A DNA stretch of 32,420 bases from Thermodesulfobacteriales bacterium. Lineage in GTDB: Bacteria; Desulfobacterota_D; UBA1144; Nemesobacterales; UBA2774. Below the pieces are notes generated by a model. It did not search any database, was not told where the DNA came from, and saw only the letters and a list, made by a program, of their open reading frames with translations. The translations under genes were made by a program, and so were the position numbers. Every line of letters begins with the position of its first letter. Position 1 is the stretch's first letter. This document shows, one piece after another, positions 2,596 to 11,737 of this stretch. The DNA lies in assembly GCA_004525335.1 (NCBI GenBank), contig SPCL01000003.1, positions 1 through 32,420 of the forward strand, given 5' to 3'.

Positions 2596-3993
2596 TTATT
2601 CACTAAACGGATCTCTTAAGATTCTATGTAGACGTTCAATCTCTGTATAATCCGCCTCATCAACAGCCTTTCTGATCGCGTTCTCTGCAAGATAGTTTCT
2701 GAGTATGAATTTTGGATTTACTAAATTCATACTCTTATTACGTTCAGTATCATTGCTATTTTCTGCCTTAAGACGGAGTTTATATGATGACATCCAATCT
2801 GAAATTGCGCCCTGATCTTCAAACATAAAAACTATGTCTTGATTCCGGTCTGAATTATTGGACGTGATATTGCTTAAGCGTCTCAAGAAAATCGTATAAT
2901 CCACTTTCTCCTTAGCCAGAATATCTAATAGCCTCTTTATTAATTCTACATCTTCAGTCATTTCCTCTTTAAGTCCAATCTTCTTACTCATAATCTCTAC
3001 GTAGCAGCTTGCATATATGTTTCTAAAATTATCTAAAGATTCTTGAGCTTTCTCCCCGTCAACAATTGAGCTTAGAGCAACAGCTAACTTATTTAAATTC
3101 CAAAGAGCAATAGCAGGCTGGTTTTGATATGAATATCTCCCAAAATTATCTGAATGATTAGGAGTGTATTCAGGATTGCAATCTTCCAGAAAACCGTAAG
3201 GCCCATAATCTATTGTAAGCCCCGTGATAGACATATTATCTGTATTCATAACACCGTGAGCAAATCCAACAGATTGCCACTTAGCCATAAGCTGAGCGGT
3301 CCTCTTAGCTACTTCTGAGAAAAACAGATCATATCTATTTTCCAATCCAAGAAACTCGGGAAAATGATGCTCTATAACATAATCCGCTAAGAGCTTTACG
3401 CAGTCTGGTCTATCTGTATAGTGAAAAGCCTCAAATGAACCAAAGCGCACATGAGTCTGGGCCATTCTAACCATCATGGCTCCCTTTTCACTTGTCTCAC
3501 GTTGTACTATTTCATCACTTCCTATGATACAAAGCGCTCTTGTTGTAGGAATTCCAAGCCCATGCATGGCCTCACTACAAAGATATTCCCTTATGCATGA
3601 TCTCAACACCGCTCTGCCGTCAAAAATGCGTGAGAACTTAGTTCGTCCTGCTCCTTTTAAATGGAGATCCCAGATCTCTCCTTTCTTATTTCGAACTTCT
3701 CCTAAAAGAATTGCACGACCATCTCCTATGTCCGGATTGTAAACTCCAAACTGATGCCCAGTGTAATACATGGCAAGCGGATCTGACCCTGGCAACATTT
3801 TCTTTCCGGAAAGATAATCTGCGAACTCAGGTAGCTCTGCTTGAGTCGGATCAAGATCAATTAGGGCAGCAGCGTCTGAATTAAAAGAGACAAGATCGGG
3901 ATTACTAAGAGGCGTTGGTTTAACCAGATCATAAAACTCTTGTGGCAGTTTTCTGTAAGTATTATCAAACTCTAGATCGGTGATTTTTCTCAT
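2596..3993 (-). CDS. selO: SelO/YdiU family protein (pseudokinase-fold protein adenylyltransferase)
   Basis: 465 aa; motifs YYTGHQFGVYNPDIGDGRAILLGE, HLKGAGRTKFSR, GVMNTDNMSITGLTIDYGPYGFLE, NHSDNFGRYSYQNQPAIALWNL typical of YdiU/SelO. Confidence 0.95.
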   Translation of the reverse strand: MRKITDLEFDNTYRKLPQEFYDLVKPTPLSNPDLVSFNSDAAALIDLDPTQAELPEFADYLSGKKMLPGSDPLAMYYTGHQFGVYNPDIGDGRAILLGEVRNKKGEIWDLHLKGAGRTKFSRIFDGRAVLRSCIREYLCSEAMHGLGIPTTRALCIIGSDEIVQRETSEKGAMMVRMAQTHVRFGSFEAFHYTDRPDCVKLLADYVIEHHFPEFLGLENRYDLFFSEVAKRTAQLMAKWQSVGFAHGVMNTDNMSITGLTIDYGPYGFLEDCNPEYTPNHSDNFGRYSYQNQPAIALWNLNKLAVALSSIVDGEKAQESLDNFRNIYASCYVEIMSKKIGLKEEMTEDVELIKRLLDILAKEKVDYTIFLRRLSNITSNNSDRNQDIVFMFEDQGAISDWMSSYKLRLKAENSNDTERNKSMNLVNPKFILRNYLAENAIRKAVDEADYTEIERLHRILRDPFSE

Positions 3994-10667: not shown

Positions 10668-11330
10668 ATGGGCAATAAGATACAACAAAGAGTAGGTCTT
10701 TTCGGGGGTACTTTCGATCCAATTCATTTTGGACATCTTCGAGCTGCGGAGGAGATCAAACAAATACTTGAGCTTGATAAAGTTTATTTTATCCCGACCG
10801 CAATTTCACCTCATAAAGTAGATACGAATGTAACTCTTTCTTCAAAGCGGCTAGAAATGCTAAAACTAGCGATAGAAGGAAACAAATATTTCGATATATC
10901 GGAATTTGAACTGAAATCTGAAACACCTTCATATACAATTAAAACTCTTGAGTATTTTAGTAAAATGGAACCCGCTCCTGAGCTTTACTTTATTGTTGGC
11001 AATGAGCAGTTCGATCAGATGGACACTTGGAGAGATTACAAACGGCTTTTTGAGCTAAGTAATTTTGCTGTTATCACAAGACCGGGGTTTTCAGAACTAA
11101 GCTCAAGCAAAGTACCACTTGCGCTTAAAGATGATTTTCGATATTATAATTGTATAGAAAACGTGATTTCATATACTAACAAAAGAAAAGAGATTGTATT
11201 TATAGAGATTAAAGGAATTGAGATTTCTTCAACTGATATTCGAGCCTTTGTTAAATCAAAAAAGTCCATTAAATATCTTGTACCGGATAAAGTACAAAAA
11301 TTTATATTATCTGAAAAACTGTATGCTTAG
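10668..11330 (+). CDS. nadD: Nicotinate-nucleotide adenylyltransferase (annotated ORF opens at 10629; ATG 10668 more likely)
   Basis: GLFGGTFDPIHFGHLRAAEE, FIPTAISPHK, ELYFIVGNEQFDQMDTWRDYKRLF, ISSTDIRAFV. Confidence 0.95.
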   Translation: MGNKIQQRVGLFGGTFDPIHFGHLRAAEEIKQILELDKVYFIPTAISPHKVDTNVTLSSKRLEMLKLAIEGNKYFDISEFELKSETPSYTIKTLEYFSKMEPAPELYFIVGNEQFDQMDTWRDYKRLFELSNFAVITRPGFSELSSSKVPLALKDDFRYYNCIENVISYTNKRKEIVFIEIKGIEISSTDIRAFVKSKKSIKYLVPDKVQKFILSEKLYA

Positions 11331-11341
11331 GAGGCACCTAA

Positions 11342-11737
11342 ATAGACTCTAAAAATAAAGCTATATCTGTTGCTCACGCAGCTTGGGAAAAACAAGCTAT
11401 AAACCCTATTTTGCTTGAAGTAAAATCTACTAGTGATGTTACTGATTACTTCCTGGTATGTAGCGCCAATTCTGACCGCGGTGTAAAAACTATAGTTGAG
11501 AATATAGAACAAACGCTCAAAGATGCGGGGCAAAAGGTGATTGGAGTAGAAGGTTTCAAAGAAGGCAAATGGGTTCTTGTAGATTCAGCGGATGTTGTAG
11601 CGCATGTGTTTTATGAGCCTCTTAGAGAGTTTTATGATATAGAGAGTTTATGGATAGATGCACCTAGGTTAAATCTGGACTTTAAGGACAACCCCACCCC
11701 TCTTAAACCAAAAGGTTCCCAGGAAACATATAGATAG
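11342..11737 (+). CDS. rsfS: Ribosomal silencing factor RsfS (YbeB/Iojap), apparently starting at ATA
   Basis: Core DYFLVCSANSDRG...GVEGFKEGKWVLVDSADVVAHVFYEPLREFYDIESLWIDAPRL. In-frame reading extends to 11342 (I/M-DSKNKAISVAHAAWEKQAINPILLEVKSTS) with the expected N-terminal domain; the stop TAA at 11339-11341 bounds it; AGGAGG at 11329-11334. The ORF track could only start it at TTG 11411. Confidence 0.85.
   Translation: MDSKNKAISVAHAAWEKQAINPILLEVKSTSDVTDYFLVCSANSDRGVKTIVENIEQTLKDAGQKVIGVEGFKEGKWVLVDSADVVAHVFYEPLREFYDIESLWIDAPRLNLDFKDNPTPLKPKGSQETYR

Follow-up and report, generated by a model that had tools for sequence, protein, structure and literature searches.

An AUA start codon on rsfS, kept as AUH across a bacterial order and plausibly subject to control by IF3

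The rsfS gene of the analyzed window almost certainly starts with AUA, as judged from its reading frame and from its relatives. An AUH codon occupied this position in every genome of the window's order in which the region was read, and infC, encoding IF3, also started with AUA. With moderate confidence, we favor the explanation that rsfS is an AUH-start gene under IF3 discrimination, coupled to the upstream nadD gene, so that the 50S and 30S anti-association factors would be under a common control. The window is the whole 32,420-nucleotide stretch of DNA that was analyzed. It comes from a metagenome-assembled genome (MAG) in an order of uncultured Dadabacteria, with 306 contigs totaling 2.29 Mb and a completeness of 92%. 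Its nearest named relatives were Dadabacteria MAGs, with 86% to about 70% protein identity.

The features of the rsfS start region were as follows.

10668–11330, + strand: nadD (nicotinate-nucleotide adenylyltransferase), stop TAG at 11328–11330; NF000840 E = 6.7e-62, TIGR00482 E = 3e-54
11329–11334, + strand: Shine-Dalgarno (SD) sequence AGGAGG, read directly, overlapping the nadD stop TAG and 7 nt from ATA
11339–11341, + strand: in-frame TAA adjoining ATA, which rules out an rsfS start further upstream in frame
11342–11344, + strand: ATA start codon of rsfS, the first codon following the in-frame TAA; AUH in 43/43 order genomes
11342–11737, + strand: rsfS coding sequence, 131 codons beginning with AUA and ended by TAG at 11735–11737; PF02410 and TIGR00090 match; codons 2–22 under purifying selection
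11411–11413, + strand: TTG, the earliest canonical codon in the rsfS frame; rejected as start, with 23 conserved codons lost and the TTG not kept in relatives

Profile searches identified the product as the ribosome-silencing factor RsfS (PF02410, E = 1.2e-26; TIGR00090, E = 1.9e-28). The TIGR00090 match scored 98.5 bits against a cut-off of 56.9 and covered positions 5–99 of 99, which places the protein in the RsfS (Iojap/YbeB) family. The nadD start at ATG 10668 was derived from the profile match, and GTG 10629 would be possible too.

The first-pass annotation had described an ATA directly after TAA, no ATG, GTG or TTG in the rsfS frame between that TAA and TTG 11411, and an AGGAGG on the nadD stop at 7 nt from ATA. 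Direct reading confirmed each of these points. The gene thus combined the sequence features of an AUH-start gene, namely an AUH codon, a normally spaced SD sequence, and the lack of any usable canonical start. It had also been stated that a start at TTG 11411 would delete 23 residues, and this held, with the affected codons conserved in relatives. In family f1, pairwise differences at codon positions 1, 2, and 3 were 0.229, 0.079, and 0.601 in codons 2–22, and 0.175, 0.077, and 0.567 in codons 23–105. The respective values in family f6 were 0.094, 0.063, and 0.326 in codons 2–22 compared to 0.100, 0.056, and 0.314 in codons 23–105. Codons 2–22 are therefore coding sequence under purifying selection equal to that on the rest of the gene. 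Because they evolve as coding sequence, rsfS translation begins no later than codon 2, and given the TAA, ATA is the only candidate.

Accordingly, it is very improbable that rsfS translation begins elsewhere, either at TTG 11411, the first in-frame canonical codon, or from nadD through a frameshift or read-through. Against TTG 11411 stand the conserved coding sequence in codons 2–22 and the lack of conservation of this TTG in relatives. The in-frame TAA blocks an extension, a -1 shift from nadD meets TAA too, and a short ATG frame at 11323 was missing in relatives. What speaks for another start is that a few relatives carry a canonical codon slightly upstream of ATA; this was an ATG a few codons upstream in G017, and such codons were also present in G043 and in genus g5. 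In genus g5 (G010 and G013; loci L121 and L123), a TTG adjoins ATA and overlaps the TGA stop of nadD (TTGA). This TTG may be the rsfS start there, as a possible return to a canonical start.

The order was represented by 43 genomes, from seven families, in which the rsfS start could be read; in one more genome only the 3' end of rsfS was present. At the homologous position, 40 genomes had ATA, two had ATC, and one had ATT, and none had ATG, GTG or TTG (0/43). The two genomes with ATC make up one family. A GGAGG-like SD sequence was located 5–8 nt upstream of the codon in nearly all order genomes, and in six of them (G000, G001, G003, G016, G022, and G028) an in-frame TAA lay immediately 5' of ATA. 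Conservation of AUH was judged to be far beyond chance, since it was kept in 43/43 genomes compared to a difference in about 59% of pairs at third codon positions elsewhere in rsfS. The other isoleucine columns of rsfS contained a mixture of all three Ile codons, and ATA made up 32–52% of Ile codons inside the sampled genes. In the sister family of the same class, rsfS started with ATG or GTG (12 genomes read).

These comparisons support the non-canonical AUA start that had been proposed for rsfS in the first-pass annotation. They also decide against the main alternative given there, namely that a true ATG became ATA through an error in sequencing or assembly. The window does come from a metagenome-assembled genome; however, the same ATA recurred in 40 genomes, which derive from many different assemblies, and a pattern of ATG in relatives with ATA only here did not occur when the 5' ends of relatives were checked. 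An error as the source of ATA is ruled out by the relatives, and its remaining probability is negligible.

The stop codon of nadD was located at +1 of ATA, as A[TAG] or A[TAA], in 31 of the 43 order genomes, when nadD stops were placed via the longest open upstream frame (217–264 codons). In the window, the nadD stop is at -14 relative to ATA, without the +1 overlap. That the nadD stop lies on ATA itself in most relatives had not been seen in the first-pass annotation. With AUA in place of AUG, the A-UAG or A-UAA overlap corresponds to the common ATGA overlap. Because the second and third bases of the start double as stop bases, the overlap is a serious rival explanation: ribosomes finishing nadD would re-initiate at AUA, the identity of the codon would be unimportant, and AUA would be held in place by the stop. 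The same geometry at infC (33/43) and at rsfS of a second phylum (ATTAG) agrees with this explanation, which we nevertheless consider unlikely. AUH was kept in 12 genomes without the +1 nadD overlap, the window included, and these were scattered over several separate places on the RsfS tree, which was built on RsfS alone and has weakly supported deep branches. Nine genomes read ATAA at the rsfS start, and none read ATGA, which is one A-to-G transition away and would leave a valid TGA stop, although among 4-base overlaps in these genomes ATGA is the most frequent and TGA serves as an ordinary stop codon. Since ATGA is common, the step from ATAA to ATGA was never taken, and AUH persisted in the 12 non-overlap genomes, the overlap is probably not the sole cause; we argue that it would not by itself force AUA. 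Part of the start conservation of rsfS and infC could stem from the overlap with the upstream stop (31/43 and 33/43, respectively).

The infC gene started with ATA behind GGAGG in 30/30 loci of the order and in 13/13 loci of the sister family (L165–L194 and L279–L291). In 33 of these 43 loci, the start overlapped the stop of the upstream frame as A[TAG] or A[TAA]. The analogy with infC drawn in the first-pass annotation was strengthened by this result. The biotin synthase gene bioB was a third gene of the order with a conserved AUH start, and it has no ribosome role. It started with ATT, ATC or ATA behind an SD sequence in 30/30 order genomes (L299–L328), and with ATG in 13/13 sister-family genomes (L377–L389).

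The rarity of such starts was confirmed by a screen of 1.93 Mb from seven genomes, containing 996 ORFs in 369 reciprocal-best-hit ortholog families. The screen selected a conserved N-terminus extending beyond any canonical start. By this criterion, 37 of the 369 families were flagged in at least two genomes, and AUH genes having a chance in-frame canonical codon upstream escape this count. An earlier version on a smaller sample listed every flagged ORF. Among the flagged families listed, only rsfS, infC, and bioB had AUH and an SD sequence correctly placed in every affected member; the majority of the other families had an ordinary start a few codons further on. Elsewhere in the sampled genomes canonical starts predominated, and GUG and UUG were common. 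General use of AUA starts in these genomes was rejected, as AUH was found in 3 of 369 families among those listed. An altered initiator tRNA was likewise considered, and there was no sign of one. G000 encodes an initiator-type tRNA with the ordinary CAU anticodon, a GGG/CCC stem, and a 1:72 mismatch, and no initiator tRNA with another anticodon was present among the 24 tRNA matches of a 92%-complete genome. The mRNA structure at the rsfS start gave no consistent signal across 12 genomes (mean z of -0.4 versus mononucleotide shuffles).

Outside the order, rsfS without canonical starts was found in a second phylum (G077 and relatives; L026 and L292–L298). ATT was present in the eight genomes with a match, one of which was read in a shifted frame. 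It was located 10 nt after AAGGAG and overlapped the nadD stop (ATTAG). The infC gene of this phylum also appears to start with ATA. In an Armatimonadetes MAG (L060, rsfS match 3001–3267), the sequence AAGGAG-TTTAAT-ATA was observed, with no canonical start near the N-terminus. It is a possible further independent AUH case.

IF3 represses non-canonical starts; infC autoregulates in this way, and sigR, with its GTC start, is under trans control by IF3 (PMC5472188). The infC of S. aureus starts with AUA; in this species AUA starts yield about 10–30% of the AUG output, and the ccpN ratio shifts with the medium (PMC13009471). RsfS binds uL14 and, together with IF3, curbs subunit joining in E. coli, where both factors increase when 30S maturation is slow (PMC13246957). 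The literature library searched yielded no report of an AUA start on rsfS or of Dadabacteria start codons. With AUH in 43/43 genomes, rsfS has the conserved non-AUG identity of the IF3-discriminated class, and IF3 control of rsfS is plausible.

We infer the following mechanism. The rsfS of the order would be translated from AUA, rarely AUU or AUC, behind a strong SD sequence and with the ordinary initiator tRNA, and coupling to the upstream nadD frame would partly supply the ribosomes. Because the third base of AUA mismatches the initiator anticodon, IF3 should destabilize initiation at rsfS, as at infC. RsfS synthesis would be low when IF3 is abundant relative to free 30S, and would increase under a shortage of IF3 or a buildup of free 30S. 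The level of IF3, which keeps 30S apart, would then set RsfS, which keeps 50S apart, while IF3 would also limit its own synthesis via the AUA start of infC. By delaying the joining of 50S, RsfS may additionally repress the weak start of its own gene.

The main functional rival to IF3 control is a low-dosage role, in which AUA is a constitutively weak start that keeps RsfS scarce because an excess would block 70S formation, and IF3 carries no signal. bioB adds weight to this explanation and is a point against the IF3 reading, as it shares the AUH trait without a ribosome role and fits low expression equally as well. A weak canonical start on rsfS is also known elsewhere, since E. coli rsfS starts at the minor codon UUG (PMC10917681). 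However, the SD sequence has stayed strong in the order, although weakening it could lower expression, and GUG and UUG were never used at the rsfS position despite being common in these genomes. On balance, a merely weak start is rather improbable as the full explanation.

A wider version of IF3 control can be put forward only tentatively. Start-codon identity alone might define a small IF3 regulon of infC, rsfS, and bioB, which would set both anti-association factors with no dedicated regulator, and AUH-rsfS would have had a separate origin in one or more other phyla.

An AUA start on a gene for a 50S anti-association factor would allow IF3 control in trans of other ribosome factors to be tested cheaply. 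Annotation restricted to ATG, GTG, and TTG can miss the rsfS start, here with a loss of 23 N-terminal residues. The comparative screen applied here, for N-termini that are conserved yet lack a canonical start, could be run on any lineage to find genes of this kind.

The infC gene is the textbook case of a non-canonical start used as a sensor. To our knowledge, conserved non-canonical starts have been described for few bacterial genes. The rsfS gene would join the IF3-sensitive genes with non-AUG starts; it is unexpected in that group, and its pairing with infC is suggestive. Non-AUG autoregulation of infC involves AUU in E. coli, AUC in Streptomyces, and AUA in S. aureus (PMC5472188, PMC13009471). 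Like the infC system, rsfS has AUH, a strong SD sequence, deep conservation, and an overlap with the upstream stop, and the same genomes carry an AUA-started infC. Whereas the product of infC regulates its own gene, regulation of rsfS would act in trans, and RsfS is a 50S factor. The rsfS case also resembles the Streptomyces sigR GTC start (PMC5472188), as a gene other than infC with a conserved non-canonical start and a strong ribosome-binding site, with IF3 control at rsfS being what we infer. In contrast, sigR has GTC, encodes a sigma factor, and was demonstrated by experiment within one genus, whereas rsfS has AUH and is conserved across an order. Also similar are Staphylococcus ccpN (AUA) and cvfC1 (AUU), whose conserved starts lie behind an extended SD sequence and give lower expression than AUG (PMC13009471). 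Unlike rsfS, ccpN and cvfC1 are regulator genes with no link to subunit association.
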